Below are positions 15,611 to 33,793 of a DNA stretch of 53,958 nucleotides, piece after piece. Within the stretch, counting starts at the first letter, position 1. Each line of letters begins with the position of its first letter. Under the pieces are notes generated by a model, which did not search any database, was not told where the DNA came from, and saw only the letters and a list, made by a program, of their open reading frames with translations. The translations under genes were made by a program, and so were the position numbers. Origin of the DNA: an uncultured archaeon (lineage in GTDB: Archaea > Nanobdellota > Nanobdellia > Woesearchaeales > CAIVOO01); the NCBI GenBank assembly GCA_903904885.1, contig CAIVED010000014.1, forward strand, positions 1-53,958, given 5' to 3'.

Positions 15611-16369
15611 TTAAGTGCTTATGCAAGAATAAATGCAATACGGGGTAACGGTAACTGTCCACGGGGAATGGGTCATGGCATATCTATATTCAAATTCTCC
15701 TACAAGTTTAATTTTAGAGTTTGCCGGACAAACTAAATTATAGAAACAACCTCCTCCCGCGTTACAACTCGCTGCCACAAATGTGGCACCCCCCCAAGAA
15801 TCGGTTATTCCCGGTATTCTTGGTGCATAAGTAGCATAGTTCAGACTAAAATCGGTTTCACAGTTTTGTGTAACCCCGTTTTTACCTAAATAACCCCCTG
15901 CAACAATATTGCCTGAAGGCCAGGTGGTCCTTGGAACACCGCCAAGTGTTATGGTTTTAGTGGCAGTTATATTTTCTGAAGTGATGTTGGAATTTGGAAA
16001 AACCACAGACAGATACGATGACCCGGGATAAATTTGCAGACCCGCCCACGCCCCTGAAGGATTGTACGATATGCTTGCCTTAGTTCCCCAGGAAATGCTG
16101 TTCGGCAGAGTCTCAGGCAAAACCAAAGACTTCCCAACATTCAAATTCCCAAGAAAACCAAAAGTATCAGAAGAAGTCCCACCAAAAGTCCCAGGCAATA
16201 CCTTTCCGGCAGAAACATTCATTATCTCATTATCACTATGGCCCATAATCGCAGGGTTGTTATAAGATGACTGATAGGCAGCAACCCCAGCAACAAACAA
16301 AATGCAAACTAGAACAACCAAAAACACCAAATGCCTCTTCTCAAAATTAAATGACAAATTAATCTGCAT
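15611..16369 (-). CDS. Modular surface protein, paralogue E (GGxPRxxWP family)
   Basis: A 252-aa member of a five-copy family here. The N-terminus FEKRHLVFLVVLVCILFV is a signal anchor nearly identical in all copies. It continues with YQSSYNNPAIMGHSDNEIMN, shared almost exactly with the copy at 30038-31213. Next come FGFLGNLNVGKSLVLPE and TITLGGVPRTTWPSG, the family's beta-rich repeat like those of tail-fibre shafts. The last 95 residues form a distinct tip with five Cys (NCETDF, AASCNAGGGCFYNLVC) and two more at the end. It is leaderless from the TATA box at 16391. It is probably displayed outside as an adhesin, by inference. It lies 12 kb from the other four copies. Confidence 0.85.
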   Translation of the reverse strand: MQINLSFNFEKRHLVFLVVLVCILFVAGVAAYQSSYNNPAIMGHSDNEIMNVSAGKVLPGTFGGTSSDTFGFLGNLNVGKSLVLPETLPNSISWGTKASISYNPSGAWAGLQIYPGSSYLSVVFPNSNITSENITATKTITLGGVPRTTWPSGNIVAGGYLGKNGVTQNCETDFSLNYATYAPRIPGITDSWGGATFVAASCNAGGGCFYNLVCPANSKIKLVGEFEYRYAMTHSPWTVTVTPYCIYSCIST

Positions 16370-28349: not shown

Positions 28350-29987
28350 CTATTTGTACCAGATTTCCCAATTCCACTGACTGGTAAATGATGACCAGTC
28401 CGCTGTTTCGACTTTTAATGAAGTTAGATCCCCTGTCCAATGAGTGGAAGTTTCATAAATGCAAAATACTGTACCATAAGGTTCCCCGCATTTCCCAGGA
28501 TAACCTGGGTTGGGTGTCAGACCCGTTAGGTCAGGGCATCCTACCATAAGTTTGCCATTTATATACAACTGCGCCCAGTTATGCCCATCCTTTCCTCCTC
28601 CTGGGCTCAAGTCAGCGGATACTTTGTTTAGAGTTCCGCTTGAATAATAAAAATCAGTACATTTTGAACTCTTTGACCCCCCGTTTATCACACTTCTGCC
28701 ATCCCCCCCAACACCGTAAAAATCATTATAATTCTTTACCTTGAATAAAATTTTTTTTGGTTGGTCAGTTGGCCAGTCAAATTTTCCAAAATTCATTCTT
28801 TCAGGGTCTGAATAAGCAGAACTTAAAACATAACTAACCCCTGATGGACCAATAGTAGTTAGACCCTCTTCACTCTCTTCCGAGGCCTCAAGCAATAATT
28901 TCCATCCACTATCCGGCCAGCTGTCTCTTGGCTCGCCTCCGAGGGTTAGATTGCCTGTTACAGTCATGTTAATAACCGTAATGTTTTTAACAGTCAGGAG
29001 GTTAGAAATATTAACATTCCAAGGAAAACTAAAATTCCCTCCACCAACATTCACCCCAAAAGTCCCCGCAGTTATATTCACCGCACTAAGATTGGAAACA
29101 TTGGAAGGCCATTCATCCCGTGGAATTCCGCCAAGAGTCATGTTCCCCTTCACAGTCATGTTAATCACAGTTATATTTTTGGCAAGAAGATAATTAGAAA
29201 CATTAGCATCCGCCACACTAATATTTCTCGCAACAACCCTGTCATCAACAGTCAAATTCCCGGCAGAAAGATTAGCTACGGAAGCATTTGGAACAGTCAA
29301 TCTCGTATCAACTGAAAGATTATCAGGAAAAGTATAATCTCCGTTTCCAAAAGTGCCATTTGTTATGTTGCGTGCAGGCAGCTGGGACACTACCGCTACA
29401 GAAGGCCAACTATCCCTTGGCTTACCCCCAAGAGTTAGGTTGCCCGTTACATTAGTGTTGTTCGCAACCAAATCACCATCAATGTGAACATTTCCTGCAC
29501 CGCCAGAAATCCACAAACCGGTTGTTGAACTATAATCTATATGGGGCTTTAACGGATCCCTGGATGAACTCATCCACCAAATACCATTATTGGGCGCATC
29601 ATTAGGAAAATACAAAATCGAGGGAAAACCAAAATTCCCATCTACAAAATTATCACCAAAAATCCCTGCAGTTATATTTGCAGCACTGAGATTAGAAACA
29701 TTTGGAGGCCATTCATCCCTTGGAACCCCACCAAGAATTATATAACCTGTGGCATTCAGATCTTTTGTTGTTATTTTCTTGCTAACATTCAAATCCCCGC
29801 TAACATTCAAATGCCCAGGAAAACCAAAATTTCCTGCACCGAAAGTCCCAGGCCCGGTCTCATTTGCACCATGACCAACATGAGTTATTGGATTAACATA
29901 GGCAGCAACCCCAGCAACAAACAGCACAGAAACAAATACAACCAAAAACACCAAATGCCTCTTCTCAATGTGAATATGAATGTCCAT
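28350..29987 (-). CDS. Modular surface protein, paralogue D (GGxPRxxWP family), longest copy
   Basis: A 545-aa family member starting at ATG 29987 (MDIHIHIEKRHLVFLVV), which lies 31 nt from the TATA box; the open frame extends 7 codons further. After the anchor and YVNPITHVGHGANETGPGTFG come at least four shaft units: FGFPGHLNVSG, then NLTLGGKPRDSWP, MTLGGIPRDEWP, NLTLGGEPRDSWP and related segments, each separated by NVS/NIT-rich strands. The last 185 residues are a separate tip domain, starting at GWKLLLEASEE, with four Cys (KCTDFYY, GCPDLT, KCGEPYG, VFCIYE). The tip is not recognised. The shaft looks like a trimeric tail-fibre or pilin-like stalk. Confidence 0.85.
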   Translation of the reverse strand: MDIHIHIEKRHLVFLVVFVSVLFVAGVAAYVNPITHVGHGANETGPGTFGAGNFGFPGHLNVSGDLNVSKKITTKDLNATGYIILGGVPRDEWPPNVSNLSAANITAGIFGDNFVDGNFGFPSILYFPNDAPNNGIWWMSSSRDPLKPHIDYSSTTGLWISGGAGNVHIDGDLVANNTNVTGNLTLGGKPRDSWPSVAVVSQLPARNITNGTFGNGDYTFPDNLSVDTRLTVPNASVANLSAGNLTVDDRVVARNISVADANVSNYLLAKNITVINMTVKGNMTLGGIPRDEWPSNVSNLSAVNITAGTFGVNVGGGNFSFPWNVNISNLLTVKNITVINMTVTGNLTLGGEPRDSWPDSGWKLLLEASEESEEGLTTIGPSGVSYVLSSAYSDPERMNFGKFDWPTDQPKKILFKVKNYNDFYGVGGDGRSVINGGSKSSKCTDFYYSSGTLNKVSADLSPGGGKDGHNWAQLYINGKLMVGCPDLTGLTPNPGYPGKCGEPYGTVFCIYETSTHWTGDLTSLKVETADWSSFTSQWNWEIWYK

Positions 29988-30008
29988 ACAGCATATAAAA
30001 TAAGCCAC

Positions 30009-30018
30009 AAATTATAAA
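30009..30018 (-). promoter_or_regulatory. TATA box for paralogue D
   Basis: Minus-strand GTTTATAATT starts 31 nt before the ATG at 29987 and helps choose that start over 30008. Confidence 0.65.
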
Positions 30019-30037
30019 CTTTACTCTCAAAAAAGAA

Positions 30038-31213
30038 TCATTTCTCGCAGACAACGCAGCGGCTGACAACGTTTCTAGCATCATTTTCAGTCGAATATGT
30101 CGCTGCAGCAGCGTATGCATCCTTTGCTACAACCCACCCCGCAAGGTCCACAGGGGATGAATACCAACAGCCGTCATATGTGTTGACATCAACAGCCAAT
30201 CGCGAGCATTCCGTAAACGGCAGCCTTTTAAACTTAGGAAGGCAAGAACCAGGACTGCCTAATCCCTGATCAGCAGTATAAGCTGCTCCCCAATATCCTG
30301 TTGTAAGAGCCAGGCTATAACCATCCCAAAGTTCTTTCCAACCTGCAGGACATGTAGGAGTTGTTGTTGTCTGGCTGTGCTTAACTAAAACTGCTGCCCC
30401 GACTTTTTCACAAACATTGCACTTGCTGATACCATTGGTGTCTTTTGTTATTGAAGGAGGAGGAGGATTATCAACATTAATCAGCCAGTCACTATAGTCT
30501 TGAGGAGATACATAATAACAAGTACCTGACATTTGACATTCCAACAAAAAGCCTGGCCTAAATTCGCTGACGCATGAATCAGAAGTTCCCAAGTCTGCAG
30601 TATAAACTGAGGTAAGTAAAACCGATGCTGACACCAGACTATATCCTGTCCACAAAGAATCCCAGCCAGCAGGACAATCAGGAACAGAACTGGTCTGGCT
30701 GTGCACTGCAATAACAGTTGTGCCAGGCCAACTATCTCTTAGCTCGCCACCAAGAGTTATGTTCCTGGTTACATTAAGGTTTTTAGTAGTTATATTATTC
30801 AAGACATTCAAATTCTGATTAACAGTCACATCGCTCATAAGAAGAATAGGGTAACCATCGCTGCCAGAACTAATCAACAAACCTGAGCCAACAGCATAAA
30901 AAATGAATGGAAATGTAGCTTGCCTTGTTGCGCCCCAGAAGATTCCATTATGCCCTCCATCACCCGGAAAAAATAATGTATTTGTAATATTCAAATTCCC
31001 AGGAAAACCAAAATTCCCCCCGCCAAATGCTGACCCAAAGGTTCCACTCAAAACCTTCGATGCAGAAACATTCATTATCTCATTATCACTATGGCCCATA
31101 ACCGCAGGGGTATAAGAAGACTGATAGGCAGAAACCCCAACAACAAACAGCACAGAAACAAATACAATCAAAAAAACAAAGTGCCTCTTCTCAAAATTCA
31201 AAATTACCTGCAT
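30038..31213 (-). CDS. Modular surface protein, paralogue C, with a tandem collagen IV NC1 (C4) domain
   Basis: A 391-aa protein. Residues 1-40 are the family anchor (MQVILNFEKRHFVFL), then GHSDNEIMNVSASKV, GGGNFGFPGNLNIT and NITLGGELRDSWP. Residues 171-391 are two successive C4 subdomains. Subdomain 1 has HSQTSSVPDCPAGW, LWTGYSL, SDSCVSEFRPGFLLEC, GTCYYVSPQDYSDWL and KCNVCEK. Subdomain 2 from 279 has HSQTTTTPTCPAGW, LWDGYSL, GSPGSCLPKF, PFTEC, GCWYSS and RCVVCEK. Each carries the six Cys of the animal NC1 half-domain, twelve in all, at about the family's 110-residue spacing. In animals NC1 trimerises and crosslinks collagen IV. There are no Gly-X-Y repeats here. The start at 31213 follows the TATA box; an upstream extension is read through from the methyltransferase end. 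Confidence 0.9.
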   Translation of the reverse strand: MQVILNFEKRHFVFLIVFVSVLFVVGVSAYQSSYTPAVMGHSDNEIMNVSASKVLSGTFGSAFGGGNFGFPGNLNITNTLFFPGDGGHNGIFWGATRQATFPFIFYAVGSGLLISSGSDGYPILLMSDVTVNQNLNVLNNITTKNLNVTRNITLGGELRDSWPGTTVIAVHSQTSSVPDCPAGWDSLWTGYSLVSASVLLTSVYTADLGTSDSCVSEFRPGFLLECQMSGTCYYVSPQDYSDWLINVDNPPPPSITKDTNGISKCNVCEKVGAAVLVKHSQTTTTPTCPAGWKELWDGYSLALTTGYWGAAYTADQGLGSPGSCLPKFKRLPFTECSRLAVDVNTYDGCWYSSPVDLAGWVVAKDAYAAAATYSTENDARNVVSRCVVCEK

Positions 31214-31234
31214 GGATGAATATTTTTTTATGAG

Positions 31235-31243
31235 ATTATAAAG
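31235..31243 (-). promoter_or_regulatory. TATA box for paralogue C
   Basis: Minus-strand CTTTATAAT starts 30 nt before the ATG at 31213 and lies only a few nt after the methyltransferase stop. The same stop-to-TATA junction is copied at 32838-32860. Confidence 0.65.
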
Positions 31244-31250
31244 TTTTCCC

Positions 31251-32006
31251 TCACTTCCTCGCCACAACAAGCCAGTCCCAGATTGGCTTTTCGTCGGGGA
31301 AGAATGCATCCGGATTCCCAAATGCGTCCCAGGAATAGTAAAGCTTGCTTATCCTTATTTTTTTGAATCCGGCTTTTCTCAGGCGGTATTCTATTTCAAA
31401 TTCGTAGAAGTGCTTCTGCCTGTTGCCGTCCTCGTTGATGAAGCCCAAAAGGAAATCATAGTCCTTGCTGTCGAGTATAGCCTTGGTTTTTCTGACTGCA
31501 GCCCTCGTTGGGTTTGTCTTGAGCTCCCGCTCGTAGACAAGCATCGCGGCATAGAGCGCATATTCTATTGAGGGCAGAACCCCAACCAAAACTCCCCTTT
31601 CTTTCAGGGCATCATAAATATTCCCTATCACCCGGTTAACCTGCTTCACTGACGGAGAAATTATTGAATTAACCGTAACAATGACATTAAAATGATTTTT
31701 GTAGTTCAGCCTGCGCATGTCCTTTCTCCGGTAGATGACATTCTTGAATTTGGAGTTCATTCTCTTCGCAGTATTGACCATACCTTGAGAATAGTCAGTG
31801 GAGTAAACCCTCTTGAAATTCTCAGAGAGAAACGGCACAAGCAATCCAATTCCGCAGCCGAGCTCAAGCACAGACCTTCTCTTGCTCGCAAACCTCCCTA
31901 TTGCACGCCGTATTATCCTTGCGGCATTGTCGTCAGAAAAAGGGCTCAATACATTCTCGAAATATTTCTTTTTTGTTGAGATCTCGTCCCAGGCCTTGTC
32001 TTTCAT
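31251..32006 (-). CDS. Class I SAM-dependent methyltransferase
   Basis: A 251-aa Rossmann-fold methyltransferase. Motif I is VLELGCGIGLLVPF near residues 41-54, motif II ends in VYSTDYSQGM, and the post-motif regions are NVIYRRKDMRRLNY and NVIVTVNSIISPS. The C-terminal part (FYEFEIEYRLRKAGFKKI) is a typical cap. The substrate is unknown; because it lies inside the adhesin array, a glycan, lipid or protein N-terminus at the surface is possible. Its last 15 codons, starting PDEKPIWDWLV, are copied at 32854-32901. A TATA-like box lies 34 nt upstream. Confidence 0.88.
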   Translation of the reverse strand: MKDKAWDEISTKKKYFENVLSPFSDDNAARIIRRAIGRFASKRRSVLELGCGIGLLVPFLSENFKRVYSTDYSQGMVNTAKRMNSKFKNVIYRRKDMRRLNYKNHFNVIVTVNSIISPSVKQVNRVIGNIYDALKERGVLVGVLPSIEYALYAAMLVYERELKTNPTRAAVRKTKAILDSKDYDFLLGFINEDGNRQKHFYEFEIEYRLRKAGFKKIRISKLYYSWDAFGNPDAFFPDEKPIWDWLVVARK

Positions 32007-32032
32007 TTCTGATATGGGAGAATGCTAAATTG

Positions 32033-32040
32033 TTTTAAAA
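32033..32040 (-). promoter_or_regulatory. TATA-like box for the methyltransferase
   Basis: TTTTAAAA lies 27-34 nt before the ATG at 32006; slightly wider spacing than its neighbours. Confidence 0.45.
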
Positions 32041-32106
32041 TGTTTTGGTTTGGAATGGGAAATGAATGGAAAACTATAACTATTGTTTCAAAAAGAAATA
32101 AGACGC

Positions 32107-32817
32107 TCATTTAAAACAAGCAAAAACACTGCCCCTTAACTTGGTCGCAGCATCACACACAGCTTCTACGCTAAGAGTATTTTGATTGTGTACCTCGCAA
32201 TAACCATCTCCTCCAGCTGAATTTCCTGTCATAATCATGATCATTGCACCTGGGGGGTAGTCGGGGGGCCGACAACTACAAGTTCCACCCACACTACCCC
32301 CAGCTACCTCGCAACTGCCCACATAAAGTGAAGACATAGACGGCCAGCTGGTTCTGCAATCATTGCCAAAGCAAAGATTAGGAGCTGATACGCTCAACTT
32401 AGCAATAGCCTGTCCAATCTGAGTAACCCTGAAAATTTCCTGGGCAAATGCATGATCAACAAGCCTAAAATTTCCATTAATATTCTGCAGGTGTATATTC
32501 TGTGCGGGATTGACACCGTTAAGTCTCAAAACTTCGCCTTCCCCTTCTCGCCACCAAAAAGTTGCAGCACCATTATTCGCATACAAATTGCCAACCGCCC
32601 ACACATTGCCATTCACACCAAAATTGCCATTCACATTCAAATTGCCAGGAAAAACATAATCCCCTGCGCCGAAAGTCCCAGGACCTGTCTCGTTTGCAGG
32701 ATGGCCAACATGAGTCACCGGATTAACATAAGCAGAAACACCGACCACAAAAAGAATGCAAGCAAGAACAACCAAAAACACCAAATGCCTCTTCTCAAAA
32801 TTCAAGACTACCTGCAT
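32107..32817 (-). CDS. Modular surface protein, paralogue B (GGxPRxxWP family)
   Basis: A 236-aa copy. The anchor MQVVLNFEKRHLVFLVV is almost identical in DNA to paralogue C, followed by YVNPVTHVGHPANETGPGTFG, the variant shared with copies A and D, so this gene is a mosaic of the two N-terminal types. A short shaft (NLNVNGNFGVNGNVWAVG) leads to a globular part (WWREGEGEVLRLNGVN) like that in copy A, and a tip of about 75 residues with six Cys (GSCEVAGG, GTCSCRPP, YCEVHN, AVCDAA, FACFK). It is leaderless. Probably surface-exposed, by inference. Confidence 0.84.
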   Translation of the reverse strand: MQVVLNFEKRHLVFLVVLACILFVVGVSAYVNPVTHVGHPANETGPGTFGAGDYVFPGNLNVNGNFGVNGNVWAVGNLYANNGAATFWWREGEGEVLRLNGVNPAQNIHLQNINGNFRLVDHAFAQEIFRVTQIGQAIAKLSVSAPNLCFGNDCRTSWPSMSSLYVGSCEVAGGSVGGTCSCRPPDYPPGAMIMIMTGNSAGGDGYCEVHNQNTLSVEAVCDAATKLRGSVFACFK

Positions 32818-32837
32818 GGATGAATATTTGTTTATTA

Positions 32838-32847
32838 GAATATAAAG
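32838..32847 (-). promoter_or_regulatory. TATA box for paralogue B
   Basis: Minus-strand CTTTATATTC starts 30 nt before the ATG at 32817 and directly follows the methyltransferase remnant. Confidence 0.65.
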
Positions 32848-32853
32848 TTTTCC

Positions 32854-32901
32854 TCATTTTCTCGCAATAACCAGCCAGTCCCAGATTGGCTTTTCGTCCG
32901 G
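32854..32901 (-). pseudogene. 3' remnant of a duplicated methyltransferase gene
   Basis: The last 15 codons plus stop encode PDEKPIWDWLVIARK, against PDEKPIWDWLVVARK at the end of the intact methyltransferase (31251). Homology continues through the stop codon and the AAAACTTTATA promoter of the next paralogue in both places. The rest of the gene is gone; upstream sequence belongs to paralogue A's end. It is a scar of segmental duplication followed by deletion. Confidence 0.8.
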
Positions 32902-32947
32902 TAAATATATTGGAAAAATTCTGCAGCGAGGATTTATTATCTTGCGC

Positions 32948-33793
32948 TCATAGTGTACAACAATACATTTTGTCAACTTCTGGATGATCCTGGTAATCAT
33001 AACGCTGGGTCCATTCCCAAGGTTCTTCATAGTGTATCCCTGCCATAAACTGGCCATTAGGGCATGTCTGATAAAAAGTATTTGGAACAGCGTCTATCCA
33101 TGCACAACTAAACCATCCATTATTAGAAACCTTGAGGTCTCCATCAATTACCGTGCTCCCGCTAACATACAGGTTCCCAGAATTCCTCAGGGCCCCCGTA
33201 ACTACCGTTCCTCCGGCATACTCACCACCAAAATTCAAATAGAGCGTATCTCCTGAATTTTCACTCGCCCCCACCAGCGCCAGGTTTCTGTCATCTCCTT
33301 CTGCAGTTGAAGCGCCTCCTTGAATCCAGACATCATGATACCCATTGTTAATATTCTGGAGTATTGGCCCGCCTACACGTAATGTGCCATCCTGAGCAAA
33401 ACTAAATTCCTTATTCCAGGCATCATTAACAATTCTGAAGTATCCATTAGTATTCAGCAAGTGCACAGCCGGTCCACTGGCACCAGCCAAACTCAGAACT
33501 TCTCCTGAACCATCTATCCAAGAAAAAGTTGCACGACCATTATTCGCATTCAAATTGCCAGTAGCCCACAAATTGCCATTCACGCCCAAATCGCGATTCA
33601 CATACAAATTGCCAGGAAAACCAAAAATATCAGAAGAAGTCCCACCGAAAGTCCCAGGACCTGTCTCGCTTGCAGGATGGCCAACTTTTGTTGTCGGGTT
33701 CACATAAGCAGAAACACCAACCACAAAAAGAACGCAAACAAGGACGACCAAAAACACCAAATTCCTCTTCTCTATATGAATATGGATGTCCAT
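32948..33793 (-). CDS. Modular surface protein, paralogue A (GGxPRxxWP family)
   Basis: A 281-aa copy starting MDIHIHIEKRNLVFLVV, the anchor type of paralogue D, then YVNPTTKVGHPASETGPGTFG and SSDIFGFPGNLYVNRDLGVNG. The middle part (FSWIDGSGEVLSLAGASG, VHLLNTNGYFRIVNDAW) matches copy B. A longer shaft with SGNLYVSGSTVIDGDLKV ends in a tip of about 55 residues with four Cys (WFSCAWID, FYQTCPNGQF, MYCCTL). It lacks the LGGxPRxxWP unit itself. It is leaderless from 33815-33824. It is the upstream end of the array, divergent from the tRNA. Confidence 0.83.
   Translation of the reverse strand: MDIHIHIEKRNLVFLVVLVCVLFVVGVSAYVNPTTKVGHPASETGPGTFGGTSSDIFGFPGNLYVNRDLGVNGNLWATGNLNANNGRATFSWIDGSGEVLSLAGASGPAVHLLNTNGYFRIVNDAWNKEFSFAQDGTLRVGGPILQNINNGYHDVWIQGGASTAEGDDRNLALVGASENSGDTLYLNFGGEYAGGTVVTGALRNSGNLYVSGSTVIDGDLKVSNNGWFSCAWIDAVPNTFYQTCPNGQFMAGIHYEEPWEWTQRYDYQDHPEVDKMYCCTL

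Follow-up and report, generated by a model that had tools for sequence, protein, structure and literature searches.

Gene organization and identity of the domain

The window, a stretch of 53,958 nucleotides from an uncultured archaeon of the Woesearchaeales, encodes on its reverse strand a protein of 391 amino acids together with four paralogues. The ATG at 31213 was chosen as start codon, since the paralogues begin with MQVxxNFEKRH. The features of the locus are:

30038..31213, reverse strand: coding sequence, 391 aa, ATG start; hydrophobic N-terminal segment, beta-repeat shaft, tandem C4 (NC1) C-terminus
30719..31213, reverse strand: hydrophobic helix at residues 9-33, then the shaft up to about residue 165; common to the paralogues
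30401..30715, reverse strand: first C4 half-domain, residues 167-271; 6 Cys; PF01413 96.9 bits, E 9.6e-28
30041..30394, reverse strand: second C4 half-domain, residues 274-391; 6 Cys; PF01413 90.4 bits, E 8.9e-26
15611..16369, reverse strand: paralogue, same anchor and shaft, other C-terminal head
28350..30008, reverse strand: paralogue, several shaft repeats, other C-terminal head; true start probably 29984
32107..32817, reverse strand: paralogue, other short Cys-containing head
32948..33793, reverse strand: paralogue, other head ending CPNGQFMAGI...MYCCTL

The original prediction had placed two C4 half-domains with all twelve cysteines at 30038-30703, that is, residues 171-391 and the stop codon. 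A Pfam search with PF01413, proposed as its check, gave 180.3 bits (E 1.4e-53) for the whole protein and confirmed the tandem, with a profile boundary at residue 167. Each half aligned to positions 2-110 of the profile of about 110 positions and scored far above the cut-off of 27 bits; C4 was the sole Pfam match in the protein. Exactly 12 cysteines are present, all within the NC1 part (180, 214, 226, 232, 265 and 268 in the first half; 288, 324, 336, 349, 386 and 389 in the second) and aligned with those of animal NC1; the disulfides are presumed. The motifs HSQT, PxCPAGW, LWxGYSL, SC, C-Y, DYSxWL (first half) and CxVCE were found. Searches of the PDB with phmmer matched collagen IV NC1 chains only, over residues 167-391 and with E values of about 1e-30 to 1e-34 for single chains; 1li1_A was aligned to residues 168-389 (E 5.8e-33), and human, bovine and fly collagen IV were among the matches at about 1e-33. 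Against human alpha1 NC1 a score of 311 was observed, while 500 shuffles averaged 32.5 and reached at most 57. Profile, PDB and shuffle results together indicate a real match rather than chance; as judged from its sequence, the domain belongs to the C4 family and is a full tandem NC1. Structure prediction, the second proposed check, was less decisive. All 42 Foldseek matches at E <= 0.001 were NC1 chains (best 4e-11), but the AlphaFold model had a mean pLDDT of 39 and the rmsd was about 13; thus the matches reflect the sequence and are no independent proof of the fold. A bacterial relative described below (L020) was modelled at pLDDT 35, and we attribute both low values to alignments that were too shallow.

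No Gly-X-Y run occurs in the 391 amino acids, which agrees with the predicted lack of a triple helix; by its make-up, the protein as a whole is no collagen IV. The ASRND loop of human alpha1, which we take to be the chloride site, reads VSPQD in the archaeal domain; R76 and N77 are replaced, and most chloride-loop residues are missing. The expected absence of methionine from the Met93 region was observed, and no lysine aligned to Lys211. These two residues are the sulfilimine partners, a pair which ctenophores also lack (PMC5395295). Since neither the pair nor the chloride-loop residues are kept, an animal-type hexamer, driven by chloride and locked by sulfilimine, is unlikely.

Anchor, shaft and paralogous genes

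Residues 1-33 comprise a charged beginning and then a hydrophobic helix, FEKRHFVFLIVFVSVLFVVGVSA, of which residues 9-33 reached pLDDT 67-83 within the otherwise poor model. This stretch is conserved across the paralogues so strongly that it exceeds the need of an ordinary cleaved signal; cleavage after VSA is possible. A beta-repeat shaft, NLNVLNNITTKNLNVTRNITLGG, occupies residues ~35-165. The anchor and shaft part is 54% alike to 15917-16354 and similar to the other paralogues. A tail-fibre-like shaft had been proposed as the carrier of NC1; the shaft is present, its resemblance to tail fibres weak (PHROGs, E 0.0012, residues 123-159).

At least seven genes in the genome share this anchor and shaft and differ in their C-terminal heads, one of which is NC1. 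The members in the window, at 28350-33793 and 15611-16369, have near-identical N-termini and shafts with unrelated heads, and their shared anchor and shaft parts appear as DNA repeats, 61-83% alike. A further member lies outside the window on contig C11. Another seems to be split across contig ends, at the end of C19 (L006) and the start of C33 (L012), with the shared sequence TDRRTAWPSGAVTSQLPASNISA; it contains the motif VGIGTSSPAAKLEVSG, often seen in phage tail fibres, and the fragment with this motif gave weak PHROGs matches to tail proteins (E 0.0008-0.004). The paralogue heads that were scanned matched no Pfam family. As read from the sequences, the genes follow a design of fixed shaft and variable head with NC1 as one head, and the set looks like a fast-changing repertoire of adhesins. 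At 32848-33057 lies a methyltransferase remnant, with 57 bases 86% identical to 31245-31301, the 3' end of the methyltransferase gene 31251-32006, and an in-frame end DEKPIWDWLVIARK; it suggests the duplication of a methyltransferase-adhesin unit.

Genomic context

The assembly (G000) comprises 1.31 Mb on 44 contigs, is 98.7% complete and contains a full archaeal 16S rRNA (SSU rRNA, 1363 bits); related genomes are listed with 0.5-2.1 Mb, small sizes that agree with a lineage of the DPANN type. The window encodes a PolB closest to structures of the Pyrococcus/Thermococcus type (E ~1e-165, precisely 1.2e-165, versus 7e-53 for eukaryotic delta), an isoleucyl-tRNA synthetase and a B12-dependent ribonucleotide reductase. 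Polymerase and rRNA bear out the archaeal host that had been assumed. The GC3 of the NC1 segment (0.345) resembles that of its own shaft (0.352) and of the four window paralogues (0.34-0.38), as against mostly 0.43-0.58 in the rest of the contig's genes; by this measure the NC1 DNA groups with its own gene family. Between 47000 and 53900 the GC content falls from ~0.48 to 0.27-0.38. The genes in this region, mannosyltransferase-like, a flippase-like LPG synthase, a methyltransferase and a nucleotidyltransferase, probably make up a glycan or lipid cluster gained by lateral transfer.

Distribution among prokaryotes

C4 above the cut-off was found in no other archaeon among 371 genomes of the phylum, 145 relatives and 353 genomes of the order, which are overlapping samples. 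A degenerate DNA pattern, HSQ..P.C..W.GYS, run over 84,980 prokaryotic species, revealed three true matches, all in metagenome-assembled genomes (MAGs) of Bdellovibrionota; scans with back-translations of the single protein and of the alignment had failed to pick up these bacterial relatives. Another pattern match, L018 in Oceanospirillales, was not NC1. In a profile search, six of the 369 Bdellovibrionota-phylum genomes had tandem C4, and the relatives lie at L017, L019, L020, L027/L040, L028, L041 and L042. Where the N-termini were readable, they were prepilin-type segments, e.g., GFSLVSVMVAAG, GFSLISVIVAMG and GFSLIEMLIGMG. Pfam N_methyl was above the cut-off in one paralogue of the genome G730 and weak in others; L020 combined C4 at E 5.5e-56 with a weak N_methyl match, and minor-pilin models matched the Bdellovibrionota C4 proteins weakly. 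G730 has at least seven C4 prepilin-like genes, clustered at L041 (four) and at L042 (three); the proteins measure ~520-625 aa, and some halves are strongly eroded or expanded. In G395 (L040, 2350-3659) the prepilin gene with tandem C4 breaks into two reading frames right after the first HSQTQS, either by a frameshift or by an assembly error. Weak C4 matches in G123 and G996 contained stops and were below the cut-off. No C4 above the cut-off was detected in 399 sampled Pseudomonadota genomes. The searched phages, plasmids and viral contigs gave no NC1 match above the cut-off, and a viral or plasmid origin of the domain was rejected.

Judging by these matches, NC1 also occurs outside the animals and their near relatives. 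Previous work regarded the domain as having arisen in animals or filozoans and as the recognition module that enabled basement membranes (PMC5395295, PMC5560861). Collagen IV was reported to be absent from the unicellular sister groups, with NC1 as an early metazoan module and stand-alone NC1 genes in ctenophores only (Fidler et al. 2017, PMC5395295); from a tandem C4 in the filasterean Ministeria it was concluded that the tandem predates animals (Grau-Bove et al. 2017, PMC5560861). A partial literature search, without subscription papers and InterPro listings, found no report of prokaryotic NC1, and an earlier notice is possible. The archaeal and bacterial surface proteins with intact tandem NC1 provide outgroups for the domain, whose origin thereby becomes testable.

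Phylogeny and origin

With bacterial NC1 the archaeal domain shares 37-45% identity (best 45%) and with animal NC1 39-41%; between human and fly chains the identity is 47-59%. In a tree of the whole NC1 (12 rows), in which human and fly were the only eukaryotes, four animal sequences stood on one side (98/99) and the archaeal and bacterial sequences on the other; the human alpha and fly sequences were read from PDB alignments, with a few linking residues between the aligned pieces. Lying outside the animal clade and less similar to it than human is to fly, the archaeal NC1 does not derive from the sampled bilaterian diversity. In the tree of half-domains, the animal N halves (95/88) and C halves (100/99) were each compact, and neither archaeal half fell within these clades; a single ancestral N/C split for all halves was not rejected (p-AU 0.2). 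The original prediction had implied an old transfer or a prokaryotic origin of the fold. Prokaryotic relatives do exist and the sampled animals form a clade of their own, but the half-domain trees leave the direction unsettled.

One possible course, in our view a doubtful one, is a transfer from collagen IV of an animal or another holozoan to the archaeon, and separately to Bdellovibrionota. Reports of NC1 beyond prokaryotes concern animals and the filasterean Ministeria, the occurrence of the domain among prokaryotes is very patchy, and a tree joining the archaeal NC1 with the animals was not rejected (p-AU 0.31). The position outside the sampled animal clade (98/99), the identity of 39-41% to animal NC1 compared with 45% to the best bacterial one and 47-59% between human and fly, and the placement of both archaeal halves outside the animal N and C clades argue against it. 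A stem-holozoan donor stays compatible with the trees, as these contain no early-branching eukaryotic sequences. Conversely, we suggest tentatively that NC1 was originally a prokaryotic head of surface filaments such as pilin-like proteins and fibres, acquired from microbes by the filasterean-animal ancestor and fused there to a collagen helix, giving collagen IV. If true, a domain of prokaryotic origin would have led in this way to collagen IV and so to the basement membrane. The prokaryotic proteins suggest a function of NC1 outside a collagen and an earlier use in cell-to-cell attachment.

Proposed function

We propose, with a probability of about 0.6, that the archaeal protein is a surface fibre with NC1 as an exchangeable attachment head. 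The hydrophobic N-terminal segment would direct the protein to the membrane or anchor it there, and the repetitive beta shaft would project outward from the cell surface. At the far end, the complete, presumably disulfide-stabilised tandem C4 would act as the exchangeable head; NC1 in prokaryotes would serve to recognise surfaces, probably those of other microbial cells or their glycans, and may also help to cap or trimerise the shaft in the manner of collagen IV. The adhesive role is argued from position and domain swapping: NC1 is distal, heads are swapped among the siblings, and the domain takes the same end position on the pilin-like proteins of Bdellovibrionota. As at least seven members of the shaft family carry unrelated heads, NC1 was probably inserted by head swapping after lateral acquisition. 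Structural classifications put NC1 with the C-type-lectin-like folds, a group that includes several microbial tip adhesins. Both settings, the archaeal and that of Bdellovibrionota, may involve contact with other cells. The suggested binding of animal matrix is unsupported; nothing ties the organism to animals.

Alternatively, NC1 could be mainly a structural module that trimerises or caps the fibre, as in collagen IV, instead of a ligand-binding head, which we consider unlikely. The shaft has repeats resembling those of tail fibres, which as a rule form trimers, and both C4 halves are kept with all their cysteines. In collagen IV, NC1 does trimerise the chains (PMC5395295). Against such a role, R76 and N77 of the human chloride loop as well as Met93 and Lys211 are not conserved, and the bacterial copies sit on pilin-like proteins. 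Pilin-like proteins normally do not trimerise. Furthermore, the sibling fibres use unrelated heads, and the shaft can thus do without NC1; the domain may trimerise it but need not, and the attachment head remains our preferred reading. An assembly artefact or contamination with animal DNA, conceivable for a draft of 44 contigs with the domain in one archaeal genome only, is most improbable: shaft and NC1 share one uninterrupted frame between archaeal genes, the codon usage of NC1 is that of the sibling genes, the identity to the animal proteins examined is at most ~41%, and relatives occur in independent bacterial MAGs, so that a chimera and the eukaryotic contamination named as a refuting case were rejected.

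Comparison with known NC1 proteins

The archaeal domain resembles the NC1 of collagen IV (1LI1; E ~1e-33) in its two consecutive C4 halves, the 12 cysteines in matching places, the HSQ that opens each half, and the motifs GYS, DYSxWL and CxVCE. It differs in the archaeal host, the beta-repeat shaft in place of a Gly-X-Y helix, the missing Met93/Lys211, SPQD for SRND and an extra loop in the second half. The tandem C4 prepilin-like proteins of Bdellovibrionota likewise end an extracellular filament-type protein with this domain, and B373 (L020) is the best full-length bacterial match, at 41-45% identity; their N-terminus, however, is a prepilin segment and not the archaeal anchor and shaft, and several copies have eroded halves. 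The stand-alone NC1 genes of ctenophores, compared by description, also encode NC1 without a collagenous tail and with signal peptides, but they are eukaryotic and no shaft is described (PMC5395295). Spongin short-chain collagens possess NC1-related domains that share seven cysteines and have no HSQ motifs (PMC5395295), whereas the archaeal NC1 keeps both HSQ motifs and all 12 cysteines.
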